Assembly: GCA_008015835.1 (NCBI GenBank)
Contig: SSGH01000002.1
Location: 1 to 63,784 of the forward strand
Length of the DNA: 63,784 nucleotides
Reading direction: 5' to 3'
Source of the DNA: Lysobacter sp.
Lineage (GTDB): Bacteria > Pseudomonadota > Gammaproteobacteria > Xanthomonadales > Xanthomonadaceae
The position numbers and the translations under genes were made by a program. Positions 1,493-56,791 of this stretch are shown piece after piece. Positions within the stretch are counted from its first letter, which is position 1. Every line of letters begins with the position of its first letter. Below the pieces are notes generated by a model, which did no database searches, had not been told where the DNA came from, and worked only from the letters and a program-made list of their open reading frames with translations.

Positions 1493-3223
1493 ATGAATTC
1501 GGCCGCGACCGCCAATCTGCTCGGCATCACAGGCATCGCACGCCGGCTCGTGCTGGACGGCGCGCTGGAAGAGAGCGTCGCGCGCAGCGCGCTGGACGCC
1601 GCCACGCAGGAGCGCAAGCCGATCGCGAATTATCTGCGCGAGCGGAAACTGGTCACGCCGGCGCAAATGGCGGCCGCGAACTCGATCGAATTCGGCATGC
1701 CGATGATCGACCCGGCGGCGATGGACCAAAGCCAGACCGCGCTCAAGCTGGTCGACGACGAATTGATCAACAAACACAACGTGCTGCCGCTGTTCAAACG
1801 CGGCGGTCGCTTGTTCGTCGGCGTCGCCGACCCGACCAATACCTCGGCGCTGGACGAAATCAAATTCCACACCAATCTCGTCGTCGAACCGATCCTGATC
1901 GACGAAGAGACCATCAAGCGCACGCTCGAACAGTGGATGTCCGCCCAGGATACGCTCGGCGGCATCATCGACGATTCCGAAAGCCTCGATAATCTCGACG
2001 TCAGCGGCGGCGACGAGGACGCGCTCGCCGACAGCGGCATCGACGCCAAGAGCGACGACACGCCGGTGGTGCGGTTCATCAACAAAGTGCTGGTCGACGC
2101 GATCCGACGCGGCGCATCCGATATCCACTTCGAACCGTACGAAAGCGACTACCGCGTGCGGCTTCGCATCGACGGCATTCTGAAGCAAGTCACTAAGGCG
2201 CCGGTGAAGCTCAACCAGCGCATCGCCGCGCGCCTCAAAGTGATGTCGCAGCTCGACATCGCCGAGAAGCGCGTACCGCAGGACGGCCGCATCAAACTCA
2301 ATCTGTCGAAAACCCGGCAGATCGACTTCCGCGTGAGTACGCTGCCGACCTTGTTCGGCGAGAAGATCGTGCTGCGTATCCTCGACGGCAGCGCCGCGAA
2401 AATGGGGATCGAGAAACTCGGCTACGAGCCGGACCAGCAGCAGTTGTTCGTCGACGCGATCCACAAGCCGTACGGCATGGTCTTGGTGACCGGCCCGACC
2501 GGCTCCGGTAAAACCGTGTCGCTGTACACCGCACTGGGCATCCTCAACGACGAAGTGCGCAACATCTCCACGGTCGAAGACCCGGTCGAAATCCGACTGC
2601 CGGGCGTTAACCAGGTGCAGCAGAACGTCAAACGCGGCATGACCTTCGCGGCGGCGCTGCGCAGCTTCCTGCGTCAAGACCCGGACGTGATCATGGTCGG
2701 CGAAATCCGCGACCTGGAAACCGCCGAAATCGCCGTGAAAGCCGCGCAAACGGGCCACATGGTGCTGTCGACGCTGCACACCAATGACGCGCCGCAGACC
2801 ATCGCGCGCTTGATGAACATGGGCATCGCGCCCTACAACATCACCTCGTCGGTGAGCTTGGTCATCGCTCAGCGTTTGGCGCGGCGTCTGTGCCCGAATT
2901 GCAAGAAGCCGAGCGATCCGTTGCCCGAACACGCGCTGCTCGCCGAAGGCTACACGCCGGACGAAGTGCATGCCGGCATCTCGCTTTACGAGCCGGTCGG
3001 CTGCGGCGAATGCACCGGCGGTTACAAAGGCCGCACCGGCATCTACGAAGTGATGCCCATGACCGACGACATCCAAGCCATCATCCTGCAGGGCGGCAAC
3101 GCCATGCAAATCGCGGAAGCCGCGCAGAAGTCGGGCGTCCGCAACTTGCGTCAATCCGCGCTGCTGAAAGCCCGCAACGGCATCACCAGCCTCGCCGAAA
3201 TCAACCGCGTCACGAAGGACTAA
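1493..3223 (+). CDS. pilB: Type IV pilus assembly ATPase PilB
   Basis: Cytoplasmic hexameric ATPase that powers pilus extension. The 576-residue length fits the family. An N-terminal MshEN/T2SSE-N type domain is followed by the secretion ATPase domain: Walker A GPTGSGKT at about 334-341, Walker B region VIMVGEIRD at about 399-407, and the His box LSTLHTNDA. A zinc tetracysteine CPNC/CGEC lies at about 467-470 and 504-507, typical of PilB/GspE extension motors rather than PilT. The ATG sits just before the conserved N-terminal domain. It is followed after 3 nt by pilC, so the two are co-translated. Confidence 0.97.
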   Translation: MNSAATANLLGITGIARRLVLDGALEESVARSALDAATQERKPIANYLRERKLVTPAQMAAANSIEFGMPMIDPAAMDQSQTALKLVDDELINKHNVLPLFKRGGRLFVGVADPTNTSALDEIKFHTNLVVEPILIDEETIKRTLEQWMSAQDTLGGIIDDSESLDNLDVSGGDEDALADSGIDAKSDDTPVVRFINKVLVDAIRRGASDIHFEPYESDYRVRLRIDGILKQVTKAPVKLNQRIAARLKVMSQLDIAEKRVPQDGRIKLNLSKTRQIDFRVSTLPTLFGEKIVLRILDGSAAKMGIEKLGYEPDQQQLFVDAIHKPYGMVLVTGPTGSGKTVSLYTALGILNDEVRNISTVEDPVEIRLPGVNQVQQNVKRGMTFAAALRSFLRQDPDVIMVGEIRDLETAEIAVKAAQTGHMVLSTLHTNDAPQTIARLMNMGIAPYNITSSVSLVIAQRLARRLCPNCKKPSDPLPEHALLAEGYTPDEVHAGISLYEPVGCGECTGGYKGRTGIYEVMPMTDDIQAIILQGGNAMQIAEAAQKSGVRNLRQSALLKARNGITSLAEINRVTKD

Positions 3224-3226
3224 GCC

Positions 3227-4486
3227 ATGTCCGCGACCCGCACCGCCGCCAAAACCGCCGCCGCCGAACGCACGGGCGTGAGCCTGCCCATGTACGTGTG
3301 GGAAGGCACCGACAAACGCGGCATCAAGATGAAGGGCGAGCAGCAGGCGAAGAACGGCAATCTGCTCCGCGCCGAACTGCGCCGCCAAGGCATCACCCCG
3401 ACCGTGGTGAAGCCCAAGCCCAAACCGATCTTCGGCGCCGCCGGCAAACGCATCACGCCGCGCGAAATCGCGGTGTTCAGCCGTCAGATCGCGACGATGA
3501 TGAAATCGGGCGTTCCGATCGTGCAGGCGCTGGAGATCATCGGCAACGGCCAGAAGAACGTGCGCATGAAGAACATGGTCGACAGCGTGCGCACCGACAT
3601 CGAAAGCGGGTCTTCGATCTACGAAGCGATGAGCAAGCATCCGGTGCAGTTCGACGAGCTGTATCGCAATCTGGTCAAAGCCGGCGAATCCGCGGGCGTG
3701 CTCGAAACCGTGCTCGACACCATCGCGACGTACAAGGAAAACATCGAAGCGCTGAAATCCAAGATCAAGAAGGCGATGTTCTATCCGGCGATGGTGATCG
3801 CGGTCGCGATCGTCGTCAGCGCGGTCATGTTGGTCTACGTGGTGCCGCAGTTCGAGGACGTGTTCAAGAGCTTCGGCGCGGATCTGCCGGCGTTCACCCA
3901 GGTCATCGTCAATCTGTCGCGCTTCATGGTCGCGAACTGGTGGATCATGCTGCTCAGCGTGATCGCCGCCGCGGTCGCCTTCATCTTCTTCTACAAACGT
4001 TCGTTGGCCTTCCAGCATTTCCTCGATAAAGCCATCCTCAAGGTGCCCGTCGTCGGCGCGATCATGCATAACTCGGCGGTCGCGCGGTTCTCGCGCACGC
4101 TCGCGACCACGTTCAAGGCCGGCGTGCCCTTGGTCGAGGCGCTGGAAAGCGTGGCCGGCGCGACCGGCAACAGCGTGTACGAAAAAGCGGTGCTGCGGAT
4201 CCGCGACGACGTGTCGGTGGGCTATCAGGTCAATATGGCGATGAAACAGGTGAATCTGTTCCCGCACATGGTGGTGCAGATGGCGGCGATCGGCGAAGAA
4301 GCCGGCGCGCTCGACACCATGCTGTTCAAGGTCGCCGAATTCTACGAGCAGGAAGTGAGCAATGCGGTCGACGCGCTGGCCAGCTTGCTCGAACCGATGA
4401 TCATGGTGGTGATCGGCGTGCTGGTCGGCAGCATGGTCATCGGCATGTACCTGCCCATCTTCAAACTGGCGGCGGTCGTCGGCTGA
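3227..4486 (+). CDS. pilC: Type IV pilus inner-membrane platform protein PilC
   Basis: Polytopic inner-membrane platform protein that couples PilB to pilin insertion. It is 419 residues with two T2SSF repeats, each ending in hydrophobic segments (about residues 190-250 and 390-415). The opening MYVWEGTDKRG and the motif FSRQIATMMKSGVP are typical of PilC/GspF. The start lies 3 nt after the pilB stop. pilD follows 31 nt downstream. Confidence 0.97.
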   Translation: MSATRTAAKTAAAERTGVSLPMYVWEGTDKRGIKMKGEQQAKNGNLLRAELRRQGITPTVVKPKPKPIFGAAGKRITPREIAVFSRQIATMMKSGVPIVQALEIIGNGQKNVRMKNMVDSVRTDIESGSSIYEAMSKHPVQFDELYRNLVKAGESAGVLETVLDTIATYKENIEALKSKIKKAMFYPAMVIAVAIVVSAVMLVYVVPQFEDVFKSFGADLPAFTQVIVNLSRFMVANWWIMLLSVIAAAVAFIFFYKRSLAFQHFLDKAILKVPVVGAIMHNSAVARFSRTLATTFKAGVPLVEALESVAGATGNSVYEKAVLRIRDDVSVGYQVNMAMKQVNLFPHMVVQMAAIGEEAGALDTMLFKVAEFYEQEVSNAVDALASLLEPMIMVVIGVLVGSMVIGMYLPIFKLAAVVG

Positions 4487-53204: not shown

Positions 53205-54170
53205 TCACTCGACGAAATGCGAGTAGCCCTGCTCTGTCGGCGTCCACAACTCGCCCTCGGCATCGCGAACGACGACTTCGCCGCTCCCCGCGACGATCCG
53301 CCCGATCCGCGTCGCCGGCGTATCGCAGACAGACATCGCGTCTTCGATCGCCAAGCGCGCCGTCCGCGGCGCGGTGAAACACAGTTCGTAGTCGTCGCCG
53401 CCCGCGGTTTGCCATCGCTGCGTGAGCGCAGGCGGGTGCGCGATCGACAGAGTTGAGGACAACGGCAGATGCGTCAGCGCGATCTCGGTGCCGACGCGAC
53501 TGGCGCGGCACACGTGCCCAAGATCGGCCAGCAAGCCGTCCGAGAGATCGATGCACGCATGCGCGAGCCCGCCCAGCGCGCGTCCTGCCGCCACGCGCGG
53601 CGTCGGGCGATCCAAGCGCGCGCGCAAGGCCTCGCTGCGCGCCCCGCCTGCGCGCCATTCGTGCAAGGCCGCCGCCGCATCGCCTAGCGTGCCCGTCACC
53701 CACACGTCGTCGCCGACGCGCGCGGCGTCGCGCCGCAGCGCGCCCTGCGGGTCGACGAAACCGTGGACGGCGACGCAGATCGACAGCGGCCCGCGCGTGG
53801 TGTCGCCGCCGATCAACGCGACGCGATGCCGCGACGCGAGTTCCAAAAACCCGTCGAGAAAACCGTCGAGCCATGCGGCCTCGGCGTTCGGCAGCGATAA
53901 CGACAGCGTGCACCAGGCGGGCTCCGCGCCCATCGCGGCGAGGTCCGACAGATTCACCGCCAACGCTTTCCAACCGATGTCGGCCGCGGCGGTGTCGTCG
54001 GGAAAATGCACGCCGACATTGAGCGTGTCCATCGCGATCGCCAACCATCGCCCCGGCGGCGGGGCCGTCAGCGCCGCGTCGTCGCCGATGCCCACGCGCA
54101 CGTCGTCGCGCGCGGCGACGCGCGCACGGATGCGGGCGATCAGATCGAATTCGGAGATGCGCGAAGTCAT
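53205..54170 (-). CDS. thiL: Thiamine-monophosphate kinase
   Basis: Phosphorylates thiamine monophosphate to the diphosphate cofactor. It is 321 residues starting MTSRISEFDLIARI, with VGIGDDAAL, MDTLNVGVHF, VNLSDLAAMGA, GGDTTRGP and AGGDDYELCF. An ATG six codons upstream is possible. In most gammaproteobacteria thiL directly follows nusB; here about 2.15 kb of other genes separates them, so thiL needs its own promoter. Confidence 0.96.
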   Translation of the reverse strand: MTSRISEFDLIARIRARVAARDDVRVGIGDDAALTAPPPGRWLAIAMDTLNVGVHFPDDTAAADIGWKALAVNLSDLAAMGAEPAWCTLSLSLPNAEAAWLDGFLDGFLELASRHRVALIGGDTTRGPLSICVAVHGFVDPQGALRRDAARVGDDVWVTGTLGDAAAALHEWRAGGARSEALRARLDRPTPRVAAGRALGGLAHACIDLSDGLLADLGHVCRASRVGTEIALTHLPLSSTLSIAHPPALTQRWQTAGGDDYELCFTAPRTARLAIEDAMSVCDTPATRIGRIVAGSGEVVVRDAEGELWTPTEQGYSHFVE

Positions 54171-54559
54171 GCGATCGGGCGAGGCCATGTCGTCGGCAAC
54201 GAAGTCGCTATGGTGGCACAGCCGCCGCGCGGGCGCGGATGCGGCTACAACGACTTCGGCGACTGCGGCGTGCGCAGTGAGGCGTACGCGACAATCGAAT
54301 GCGGCGCGGAGCCGCCACCTCGAATCGAGACGGGATCGACATTCGCTCACGGGAACTTAACACGCGGCCGAAAAACGCGGACTAGACTCGAACCGTTCCT
54401 GCGCGGCGCCCACCACCCGTCGCGCGGGAACCTCAGTCCGGCAAGGAATCGGATCGCGAGGAACGCCCTTCGAGGAACCTGCTTCGAGAGCCGTTCGACG
54501 CATCGCATCGGTCGCGCGCCGGACGCATCCCCCGATTGTCCATTCAAGGAGCGCAACAC
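54171..54559. other. Divergent control region between thiL and the RiPP precursor
   Basis: 389 bases without a gene. A weak plus-strand promoter candidate reads TCGACA-N16-TAACAC at about 54328-54355; no strong match to consensus was found. The last 20 bases hold the precursor ribosome-binding site. No operator palindrome was recognised. Confidence 0.4.
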
Positions 54560-54724
54560 ATGTCGAAGCACGAAGACACCACCGTTCGCCCGCTGGCCCG
54601 CAACGTCGCGCGCGAACTCACCCCGCAAGAGATCGAAACGGTCGCGGGCGGTCGCATTCCGATCACCACGCACGCCACCGGCCCGAACGGCGACGATCCG
54701 GGCGATCCGGGCTCGTCGATCTGA
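54560..54724 (+). CDS. Graspetide-type RiPP precursor peptide
   Basis: A 54-residue peptide with a strong ribosome site (AAGGAG, 8 nt before the ATG). Residues 1-31 look like a leader: RPLARNVARELTPQEIETVAGG, predicted helical (from Arg10) and ending in a Gly-Gly motif at 30-31. The core (32-54) has no Cys and is built of TTHATGPNGDDPGD: Thr36, Thr37, Thr40 and Asp45, Asp46, Asp49, plus two Ser near the end. Such Thr/Ser donors and acidic acceptors are the substrate of ATP-grasp macrocyclases that form side-chain esters. The ligase gene follows. It is not a recognised microviridin (no TxKxPSD) or plesiocin repeat. Confidence 0.8.
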   Translation: MSKHEDTTVRPLARNVARELTPQEIETVAGGRIPITTHATGPNGDDPGDPGSSI

Positions 54725-54765
54725 TCGTTTCGGTTTTGCGCCGACTCGTCCGCGCGAACCCTCCG

Positions 54766-54799
54766 AACGCCGCGCTGCCGCCGTGCAGCGCGGCGTTTT
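54766..54799 (+). terminator. Terminator/attenuator between precursor and ligase
   Basis: The perfect 13-bp arms AACGCCGCGCTGC and GCAGCGCGGCGTT around a six-base loop end in four T, 42 nt after the precursor stop. Partial termination here would yield more precursor than enzyme mRNA, a common arrangement in RiPP operons. Confidence 0.75.
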
Positions 54800-54854
54800 C
54801 GCGTCGGGCGTCCGGCATCGCTCGCCCTTGTCGACACGTCGATCCGATCGCCTC

Positions 54855-55964
54855 ATGAAACAACCCTTGATTTTGTCCGGCTTCGCGCACGACGTGCACG
54901 CCGCCGCGGTGCGCTGGGCCTTGGAGCGCAGCGGCTGTCGGCCGGTGTGGGCGCGAACGTTCGCCGACCCGGCGATGACGCCGCTCTCGCTGTACGCCGA
55001 CGACGCGCACGGCCTGCGTTTCGCCGGCGGCATCGACCCCGCGCGCATCTCCAGCGTGTGGTTTCGTCGGCCGCGCATGCCGCAGGACTTCGCGCACGTC
55101 GCCGACGCAGATCGCGCGTTCGTGCAGGACGAATGGCAGCGCTTCGTCGCGAACGCGCATAGCGCCGCAGATGCGAGCGATACGTTCTGGGTCAATTCGC
55201 CCGAACGCGCGCGCGCCGCGGAGAACAAACTCGCGCAACTGCGCGCCGCGCAGCGCTGCGGCCTGCGTTTCCCGGCGACGCTGCTGTCGTCCGACCCCGA
55301 CGCGATTCGTCGCTTCCGCGAGGCGCACGGGCGCATCGTCTACAAACCCTTCGCCACGCACAGTTGGCGCGACAGCGACGGCCGCATCTACAGCACCTAC
55401 GCGCGGGTCGTCGATGCCGAGGATCTGCGCGACGACGCCAGCCTGCGGCTGTGCCCGGGCATGTACCAAGCCTGCGTGGACAAAACGTTCGACGTGCGCG
55501 TGACCGCGATCGGGCATCGCTTATTCGCGATACGCATCGACGCGCCCGAGGATGGCGACGGCGTGGTCGATTGGCGCGCCGCGTCGATCGGCGACCGCAC
55601 GCGCAGCCGACCGTTCGCGTTACCCGATGTCTGGACCGACGCCATCCGCCGATTGATGGACGCGCTGGGCTTGGTCTTCGGTTGCGTCGACTTGGTCGGC
55701 GACGCCGACGGCGGCCTGTATTTCATCGAAATCAACCAAGCCGGCCAGTTCCTGTTCGTCGAATACGACGTACCCGAACTGCCGCTGCTGCGCGCGATGG
55801 CCGCGCTATTGGCCGAAGCGCGCCCCGACTACACGTTGGACCGCATCGCCGACGTGTCCTATGCGCAGTTCCTGGAAGACCCGGAGTGCATCGCGTGGTG
55901 GGACCGCGTCGCGCCCGGCATTCGCGGCGCGGACGGGAGGATTCCGGGGGTGAGCGAGGAGTAA
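54855..55964 (+). CDS. MvdC/MvdD-like ATP-grasp macrocyclase
   Basis: A 369-residue ATP-grasp ligase expected to join core Thr/Ser side chains to Asp side chains of the precursor as omega-esters. The N-terminal pre-ATP-grasp domain has VWFRRP (68-73), the signature of graspetide ligases. The ATP-grasp fold shows YKPFATHSW (K164), the conserved DVR (213-215), D279 and EIN (292-294) for magnesium. It is unlike RimK or Ddl, which lack the RRP motif. It lies 130 nt after the precursor on the same strand; no second ligase, acetyltransferase, protease or transporter is adjacent. Confidence 0.87.
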   Translation: MKQPLILSGFAHDVHAAAVRWALERSGCRPVWARTFADPAMTPLSLYADDAHGLRFAGGIDPARISSVWFRRPRMPQDFAHVADADRAFVQDEWQRFVANAHSAADASDTFWVNSPERARAAENKLAQLRAAQRCGLRFPATLLSSDPDAIRRFREAHGRIVYKPFATHSWRDSDGRIYSTYARVVDAEDLRDDASLRLCPGMYQACVDKTFDVRVTAIGHRLFAIRIDAPEDGDGVVDWRAASIGDRTRSRPFALPDVWTDAIRRLMDALGLVFGCVDLVGDADGGLYFIEINQAGQFLFVEYDVPELPLLRAMAALLAEARPDYTLDRIADVSYAQFLEDPECIAWWDRVAPGIRGADGRIPGVSEE

Positions 55965-55997: not shown

Positions 55998-56312
55998 TCA
56001 GTCGCCGCAACGCACGACCGCGGTGGCGATATCGCGACCGGAAGCCATCGAGTGCATGACCTCGAACGTTTCGCGCTCGAAATCCTCGACCCGATGCCCG
56101 TGCGGACACAATTCGCGCGCTCTGCGTTCGATGGCGCGCAGCAGCGTATGCTCGGTCGATTGAACAGGCAACTCGTAACGTACGAGATAGGCGCCATCGG
56201 GTCGGCGCGATTCGGAATATCCGGGCGAGCCTTCGCCTCGAGAAGGACCATAACCCACGCAACCGCAGAGAGCGGCGACGAAAACGATCGGCGCGAGCGC
56301 CTTTACGGACAT
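55998..56312 (-). CDS. Small lipoprotein, last gene of the rib-nusB operon
   Basis: A 104-residue protein with signal peptide and lipobox ALCGC (Cys18), so probably a lipoprotein. The mature part has AYLVRYELP and a helix LLRAIERRARELCPHG followed by VEDFERETFEV, a layout reminiscent of CC0125/CC1285-type lipoproteins, though unproven. It starts 8 nt after the nusB stop on the same strand, the position thiL usually holds. Function unknown. Confidence 0.65.
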   Translation of the reverse strand: MSVKALAPIVFVAALCGCVGYGPSRGEGSPGYSESRRPDGAYLVRYELPVQSTEHTLLRAIERRARELCPHGHRVEDFERETFEVMHSMASGRDIATAVVRCGD

Positions 56313-56320
56313 CGCCCGAG

Positions 56321-56791
56321 TTATGCGCCCTTCCCCGCCCGCATCTCCACCTCACGCACCTCCGCCGCCAAACGGTCCAACACACCGTTGACGTAGGTGT
56401 GGCCGTGTTCCGACCCGAAGCGCTTCACCGTTTCCACCGCTTCGTTCAACACCACCCGGTACGGCACGTCGATGCGCCGCATCAGCTCGTACGCGGCGAT
56501 CCGAAGCGCGGCGCGTTCAATCGGGTCCACCTCGTCGACGGCGCGATCCAAATGCGGGGCGAGCGCGGCATCCAATTCGGCGACATGGCGGCCGACGCCG
56601 TGGACCAAGTCCTCGAAATACGCCAAATCGGCGATTTCGCGCGCCTGTTCGTGCGCGAATTGCGCGACGATCTCGCGCGCGTCGCCGCCGGAGATCTGCC
56701 ACGCGTAGACCGCTTGCAGCGCGCGACGCCGCGCGCGGGTGCGCAGCACCGGGTCGACGCCATGCTGACGGCTGTGATGCGGCTTGCTCAT
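56321..56791 (-). CDS. nusB: Transcription antitermination factor NusB
   Basis: Binds boxA RNA with NusE (S10) in rRNA antitermination. It is 156 residues starting [13 protein letters not shown], with RRRALQAVYAWQ, IERAALRIAAYELM and the end VLNEAVETVKRFG...FVNGVLD-type YVNGVLDRLA. The ATG overlaps a preceding 59-codon frame that repeats its first 13 codons. The N-terminal 20 residues are an extension typical of xanthomonad NusB. Confidence 0.96.
   Translation of the reverse strand: MSKPHHSRQHGVDPVLRTRARRRALQAVYAWQISGGDAREIVAQFAHEQAREIADLAYFEDLVHGVGRHVAELDAALAPHLDRAVDEVDPIERAALRIAAYELMRRIDVPYRVVLNEAVETVKRFGSEHGHTYVNGVLDRLAAEVREVEMRAGKGA

Follow-up and report, generated by a model that had tools for sequence, protein, structure and literature searches.

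A graspetide gene pair of Lysobacter, very probably of the thatisin type, at a chromosomal site where relatives carry adjacent exporter genes

We analysed a 63,784-nucleotide stretch of DNA from Lysobacter sp. (the window), which corresponds to contig C12 of a 4.39 Mb genome whose assembly is 99.7% complete. Two same-strand genes, encoding a short precursor peptide and an ATP-grasp ligase, lie in it between thiL and a gene resembling nusB. Throughout, G denotes a genome, L a locus, C a contig and g a genus; G000 is the window's genome, L002 its locus and g1 its own genus, and the loci L003 and L070 lie in G006 and G005, respectively. The features of the region, with the evidence for each in parentheses, are as follows.

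53205–54170, minus strand: thiL (thiamine-phosphate kinase), upstream neighbour (TIGR01379, 338 bits against a cut-off of 184)
54349–54390, plus strand: promoter-like block, ACGGGAACTTAACAC, ~20 nt, TAGACTCG (aligned in 7/7 g1 loci)
54546–54551, plus strand: Shine-Dalgarno sequence AAGGAG, 8 nt 5' of the precursor ATG (read directly; kept in 7/7 g1 loci)
54560–54724, plus strand: graspetide precursor, 54 aa (sequence, same-genus loci and family matches)
54560–54652, plus strand: precursor leader, residues 1–31, with Gly-Gly at its end (motif common to 26 distinct sequences)
54653–54721, plus strand: precursor core, residues 32–54, RIPITTHATGPNGDDPGDPGSSI (column counts over 26 distinct sequences)
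54765–54798, plus strand: 14-bp stem-loop with TTTT at its end, between precursor and ligase (folding)
54855–55964, plus strand: ATP-grasp graspetide synthetase, 369 aa (NCBIfam, PDB relatives, alignment, AlphaFold/Foldseek)
56321–56791, minus strand: downstream neighbour, a nusB-like gene (downstream in 6/6 other g1 loci, at 77–93% identity)

A small lipoprotein-like ORF is also present on the minus strand between the ligase and the nusB-like gene (55998–56312); searches of NCBIfam and Pfam with E values up to 1 gave no match to it.

The precursor gene reads from an ATG at 54560 to a stop codon at 54722–54724, and the full peptide is MSKHEDTTVRPLARNVARELTPQEIETVAGG-RIPITTHATGPNGDDPGDPGSSI. 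A first-pass annotation of the same DNA had described a 54-residue precursor with a ribosome site, a Gly-Gly leader and a Thr/Asp-rich core, all of which was borne out (the AAGGAG element precedes the ATG by 8 nt and the leader ends at Gly30-Gly31); the start that it had given for the feature, 54546, is that of the ribosome site and not the start codon. The leader motif RP..R..AREL(T/S)..E(I/V)..(I/V)(A/S)GG is common to the 26 distinct precursor sequences listed. In the cores of these 26 sequences, residues T37, H38, A39, T40, G41, G44, D45, D46, P47, D49 and P50 (window numbering) are invariant, among them the donors T37 and T40 and the acceptor candidates D45, D46 and D49; proline is found at position 42 in 25 and at position 47 in all 26. 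None of these cores contains a cysteine, a glutamate, or a lysine beyond its first residue. As the invariant donors are exclusively Thr and the invariant acceptors exclusively Asp, esters would be expected, two of them formed from the invariant Thr residues. No Pfam model recognises the precursor, nor does any NCBIfam model at its cut-off; the two databases gave only sub-threshold matches to bacteriocin leaders.

Of 395 genomes sampled from the family, 25 have the precursor, and they belong to 4 of 54 genera. Twenty-eight of 29 matching places carry the same core, THATG..GDDP.DP, and these 28 copies have TTHATGPNGDDPxDP or a near variant in common; the remaining place (L066) shares only the leader. 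The regular expression used for the core demanded part of the motif, and looser patterns returned the same 28 copies. Within g1, the precursor lies directly 5' of the ligase in all seven loci with readable upstream DNA (L002, L003, L004 and L006–L009); an eighth ligase locus, L005, is cut by a contig end and falls outside this count. The conserved precursor upstream of homologous ligases, on which the first-pass annotation had staked its proposal, is thus in place, and a chance ORF was rejected on the basis of those seven loci and the 28 family matches with the same core. In three relatives (L079, L080 and L084), a single ligase is preceded by two THAT-type precursors that differ from each other.

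Within the genus, four of ten genomes are without a precursor match: the contig of G007 breaks off inside a ligase of 88% identity, no ligase was matched in G008, and the ligases matched in G001 and G010 are all distant. The precursor was found in one of 369 class-level genomes, the window's own, and in three of 299 order-level genomes, all three within the window's family, so that none was seen outside the family in these two samples. A search for the ligase in named genomes returned six loci, all from Lysobacter, Lysobacteraceae or Lysobacterales metagenome assemblies. A genome from another family of the same order (G052) has a 45%-identical ligase without the THAT core; there, a 52-aa ORF before the ligase (L010:1308-1466) has a similar leader, RPLARILAREL, and lacks both the Gly-Gly and the core motif.

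The ligase frame is open upstream as far as 54006, and its start at 54855 was therefore set by alignment with relatives; no Shine-Dalgarno sequence was seen 5' of this start. The enzyme carries the motifs SVWFRRP (W69, R71 and R72) and FIEINQ (E292 and N294), and these five residues and K164 are invariant in 22 aligned ligases, the window's included, in agreement with the earlier description of an ATP-grasp ligase with a VWFRRP signature and intact ATP and Mg residues. Its best NCBIfam matches are TIGR04187 (3.4e-60), TIGR04185 (4e-42) and TIGR04184 (8.7e-41), all three scoring under the curated cut-offs, and these graspetide ligase models outrank weak matches to the RimK and LysX families. 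Six sequence relatives were found in the PDB, at 3e-31 to 7e-12 (MdnB, PruB, MdnC, AMdnB, CdnC and PsnB). An AlphaFold model of the ligase, built from 22 sequences with the window's first, has a pLDDT of 84.7 and a pTM of 0.85, and the first 32 rows of its Foldseek search are all chains of those same six enzymes. The first non-graspetide protein is ArgX at row 33 (4e-12), with LysX and RimK among the lower rows. Beyond the part matched by the PDB relatives, the ligase ends in ~45 further residues, which can be aligned throughout the family and include the invariant R323, D325 and W348. The features of the graspetide class are therefore found on both sides of the pair, namely an ATP-grasp enzyme of the MvdC/MvdD/SAV_5884 kind, and beside it (7/7 g1 loci) a precursor with a leader and conserved donors and acceptors (26/26 cores). 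As the first-pass annotation had proposed, the two genes are almost certainly a graspetide precursor and its ligase, a reading in line with the NCBIfam graspetide models and the first 32 Foldseek rows.

The chromosomal site is shared with relatives, and their gene content there differs from that of the window. We fetched 20 regions, of which 19 surround THAT-type precursors (one each from 19 of the 25 genomes) and one, L085 in G052, is without such a precursor; G121, G146, G167 and G185 lay outside the fetched set, as did G000 (the window itself) and G006 (the short contig of L003). Gene order was taken from tblastn with adaptor and exporter queries, keeping the best piece per region only. In 18 of the 19 THAT-type regions, an HlyD-type adaptor and a C39-peptidase ABC exporter lie 5' of the precursor. 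The exception is L070, in which neither was found by tblastn. The window likewise has neither gene anywhere by tblastn with a relative's proteins, which upholds the first-pass observation that no transporter or peptidase is adjacent. Neither gene was seen in L003, where only 383 nt lie 5' of the precursor. Of the 423 adaptor residues, the best piece spans 120 in L074 and 302 in L079; that of L074 (G316, 2942-3289) lies beside an otherwise complete exporter and could reflect a truncation, a frameshift or divergence. thiL is also upstream in all five other fetched g1 regions, and was not seen in the short contig of L003.

In the ligase tree, the enzymes of the window, G006 and G005 form one clade (support 100/98), which is sister to four exporter-bearing g1 ligases (98/98). 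A long-branch warning attaches to L082, L085 and some paralogues and leaves the window, G005, G006 and g1 rows unaffected. The simplest reading of these relationships would be one exporter loss at the fixed thiL-nusB site. The 'minimal two-gene cassette' of the earlier description is accurate for the window locus; the layout is nevertheless, judging by gene order, derived and not primitively minimal, because in relatives the genes for an adaptor and a peptidase-exporter are found at this very site. Elsewhere in the window's genome we found four C39 domains (contigs C49, C53, C42 and C6), those on C49 and C53 near other graspetide-type ligases. The closest of these C39 proteins reaches 51% identity with the query, the g47 exporter, versus 62–65% for the four g1 exporters at the lost position, so that, as far as the assembly shows, the original exporter is gone; a mere move to another site was rejected on the same comparison. 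The other C39 proteins of this genome may cut in trans.

Two further elements may bear on expression of the pair. Within the 345 nt aligned 5' of the precursor, all seven g1 loci contain a block that reads AC(G/A)GGAA(C/G/A)TTAACAC, ~20 nt, then TAGACTCG. In relatives this block is located at or just past the end of the exporter gene (the exporter frame of G003 seems to enter it), and in view of that position the precursor/ligase pair may already have been transcribed from a promoter of its own while the exporter was still there. In the window the ligase begins 130 nt downstream of the precursor, and the spacer, folded as 136 nt, gives z = −2.0, a stability equalled in 7 of 200 shuffles. By eye, the spacers of all 21 loci inspected have a G+C-rich stem, the shuffle control being that of the window only; stem sequences differ between genera, and the minimum-energy fold of the L070 spacer pairs the stem differently. 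A sigma-70 consensus scan called no promoter at 54349–54390 or elsewhere on the plus strand of the cassette, and a terminator scan called none on that strand, the stem at 54765–54798 included; the block and the stem thus rest on conservation and folding. The likely effect of the stem would be to yield less ligase than precursor.

Substitution rates were estimated by the Nei-Gojobori method without correction for codon bias. Among the window, G006 and G005, the three pairwise ligase dN/dS values are 0.161, 0.151 and 0.123, and seven pairs of exporter-bearing relatives give 0.044–0.204; the window and G003 give 0.293. For the precursor, pN/pS is 0.23–0.31 in the three exporter-less pairs, versus 0.12–0.19 in four exporter-bearing g1 pairs, and 0.31 between the window and G003. 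Because of these higher ratios the precursor, which has 54 codons only, may be somewhat less constrained in the exporter-less species. The Gly-Gly site and the core residues listed as invariant show no change over the ligase dS of 0.46–0.63 that separates the window, G005 and G006. The exporter is absent and both genes continue to be under selection.

The core had been called unfamiliar, and the locus a candidate for an undescribed system. This did not hold, since the same core occurs in 25 of 395 genomes and four genera, and seems to fit the thatisin, or group 16, type. The three genera other than the window's have it together with adaptor and exporter. A new class was rejected; the precursor type has probably been described already, and what is unusual is that related genomes share the lack of an exporter and retain both biosynthetic genes. 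Thatisin comes from Lysobacter antibioticus and has two interlocking macrolactones. The two invariant Thr, the three invariant Asp and the prolines at positions 42 and 47 are compatible with this topology and with proline isomerism. Thatisin and iso-thatisin are group 16 graspetides, and the same source mentions Pro cis/trans isomerism and an NHLM-type transporter that is often in group 16 clusters and is not a requirement (PMC13097080). The lactone-only chemistry expected for the window core resembles thatisin, described as having no lactam (PMC9826346). The Gly-Gly leader and core prolines are further likenesses to thatisin as described. The relatives' C39 exporter (g47) has NHLM_micro_ABC1 as its best NCBIfam match, below cut-off, in keeping with the NHLM-type transporters frequent in group 16 (PMC13097080); such a peptidase transporter is absent from the window locus and present in 18 of 19 fetched relatives.

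The name thatisin presumably reflects a THAT-containing core. G316 (g15), which has GDTTHATGPNGDDPGDPDFL, is one of two among 14 genomes searched that have a phenazine PhzA/B gene (the other is G185). Titles on phenazines of L. antibioticus stand in the reference list of PMC10221052, and G316 is plausibly L. antibioticus, with the phenazine gene as expected for that species. The window's copy differs from those of g15 in its genus, in the residues that precede the core motif (RIPI, where g15 has KGD), and in a core that ends GSSI where g15 cores have D-rich or DLL-type ends; its locus also lacks the adaptor and exporter. Predicted Lysobacter graspetide precursors with a residue pattern of their own form cluster 859 of Makarova et al. 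2022 (PMC8939145), and this cluster may be the same as the window's family. Because of the name, the core and phenazine gene of G316, the possible identity with cluster 859 and the descriptions of group 16, we file the pair as very probably a thatisin-type graspetide.

Other known systems are more distant. Gra-8 of Lysobacter capsici (group 19) is likewise a Lysobacter graspetide and was made in E. coli; the work on it reports the loss of three waters, with four acceptors conserved and no fewer than four donors (PMC9576775), versus two invariant donors and three acceptors in the window's family. The first-pass annotation had set the core apart from both microviridin and plesiocin, and the absence of a Lys donor, of Glu and of any repeat from the 26 cores agrees with this. 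The fold of the plesiocin (group 2) ligase PsnB matches that of the window ligase, whereas plesiocin has repeats of cyclised TTxxxxEE motifs and the precursor described here has one core only, whose acceptors are Asp and not Glu. By fold the closest enzymes are MdnC and CdnC of the microviridins and chryseoviridins (group 1), systems with two ligases where this locus has one; its precursor has neither a PFFARFL leader nor a TxKxPSDxE-type core. PruB (9bou), 31% identical to the window ligase in the fold match, is actinobacterial, from Streptomyces coelicolor. Searching the literature for core fragments as text gave only unrelated word matches among the 20 of 542 matches listed, and a term search of PMC12291112 gave neither thatisin nor group 16.

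We propose the following mechanism, whose chemistry is taken from the graspetide family. The precursor would be made in excess over the ligase, given its strong ribosome site, the stem-loop and a ligase without an obvious ribosome site. The ligase would bind the conserved leader and phosphorylate core Asp side chains with ATP; Thr37 and Thr40 would then attack, forming two side-chain ester rings from the THAT to the DDPGD segment with loss of two waters, and with two of the three candidate Asp as acceptors. The product would most likely be a twice-dehydrated bicyclic peptide. A C39 peptidase would cut after Gly30-Gly31 during export; in relatives this peptidase-exporter would be the one encoded next to the precursor, and it has been lost from the window's lineage, where export would most likely proceed in trans via one of the four other C39 proteins of the genome. 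This whole account (a thatisin-type pair, two ester rings, Gly-Gly cleavage and export in trans) strikes us as very likely correct; the points counted against it are the NCBIfam matches below cut-off, the precursor without a model, the lack of a close C39 exporter and the higher precursor pN/pS.

Several other readings were weighed against it. It is very improbable that the enzyme comes from a different, RimK- or LysX-like branch of the ATP-grasp ligases and, in place of making side-chain esters, appends amino acids or attaches the peptide to a carrier: the weak RimK and LysX family matches and the appearance of such folds lower in the Foldseek list are outweighed by graspetide models that rank higher by sequence, graspetide enzymes that fill the first 32 fold rows, and invariant donor and acceptor residues in the precursor. 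The pair might instead be a dying remnant, idle since the exporter was lost and on its way out. The missing exporter, the four of ten same-genus genomes without a precursor match (G001, G007, G008 and G010) and the raised precursor pN/pS of exporter-less pairs (0.23–0.31 versus 0.12–0.19) all point in that direction, but the window, G005 and G006 each have the two genes intact, their ligase dN/dS of 0.12–0.16 lies inside the 0.04–0.20 of the seven exporter-bearing pairs, and the cleavage site and invariant core residues have come unchanged through a ligase dS of 0.46–0.63, all of which makes decay quite improbable.

A role inside the cell, in which the mature or leader-bearing cyclic peptide is not secreted and might, for instance, inhibit a protease of the cell, would fit the absence of exporter genes from one clade whose two biosynthetic genes are still under selection. 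It is nonetheless unlikely, as the window, G005 and G006 all keep the Gly-Gly cleavage site and the window's genome has further C39 exporters in trans. We also regard as unlikely a broader scenario, in which a secreted thatisin-type graspetide became exporter-less by a single loss of adaptor and peptidase-exporter at the thiL-nusB site and was kept either for intracellular action or by rewiring to the peptidase-exporter of another graspetide cluster in the same genome.

Other precursors were noted in the genus. At ten loci (L030 on C13 and L111 on C44 of the window's genome, and L011, L013, L024–L027, L029 and L031), ATP-grasp ligases lie beside one to three tandem peptides with a FAF(K/Q/R)LA leader, no window-like Gly-Gly and mostly a GVAVAGC-type core ending in Cys; these represent a different type of precursor, perhaps one that has been less described. 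One TGA interrupts the ligase match on C44. L109:9310-9510 (on C49 of the window's genome) and L114:4302-4505 (G005) encode a Gly-Gly precursor with the core ...LNTVT(I/V)TPNGDGGDDGCDDDW; an ATP-grasp ligase and a C39 exporter lie nearby, and the PNGDGGDDG of this core is similar to PNGDDPGD in that of the window. At L108:5892-6947 (C53 of the window's genome), three tandem precursor-like ORFs lie between a ligase and a C39 exporter; they have an RVLGR(V/A)LA(V/I)EE leader followed by VSG(A/G), and one has TADSGT repeats.

An apparently described type of ester-bridged peptide is now placed in four genera of one family, and its nearly frozen core suggests a specific target. The enzyme that cleaves graspetides was stated to be unknown by Makarova et al. 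in 2022 (PMC8939145), and a 2026 title concerns a microviridin leader protease. With a natural series that has and lacks a dedicated exporter, the question of who cuts and exports graspetides lacking their own peptidase becomes testable, as does that of whether such peptides work inside the cell.
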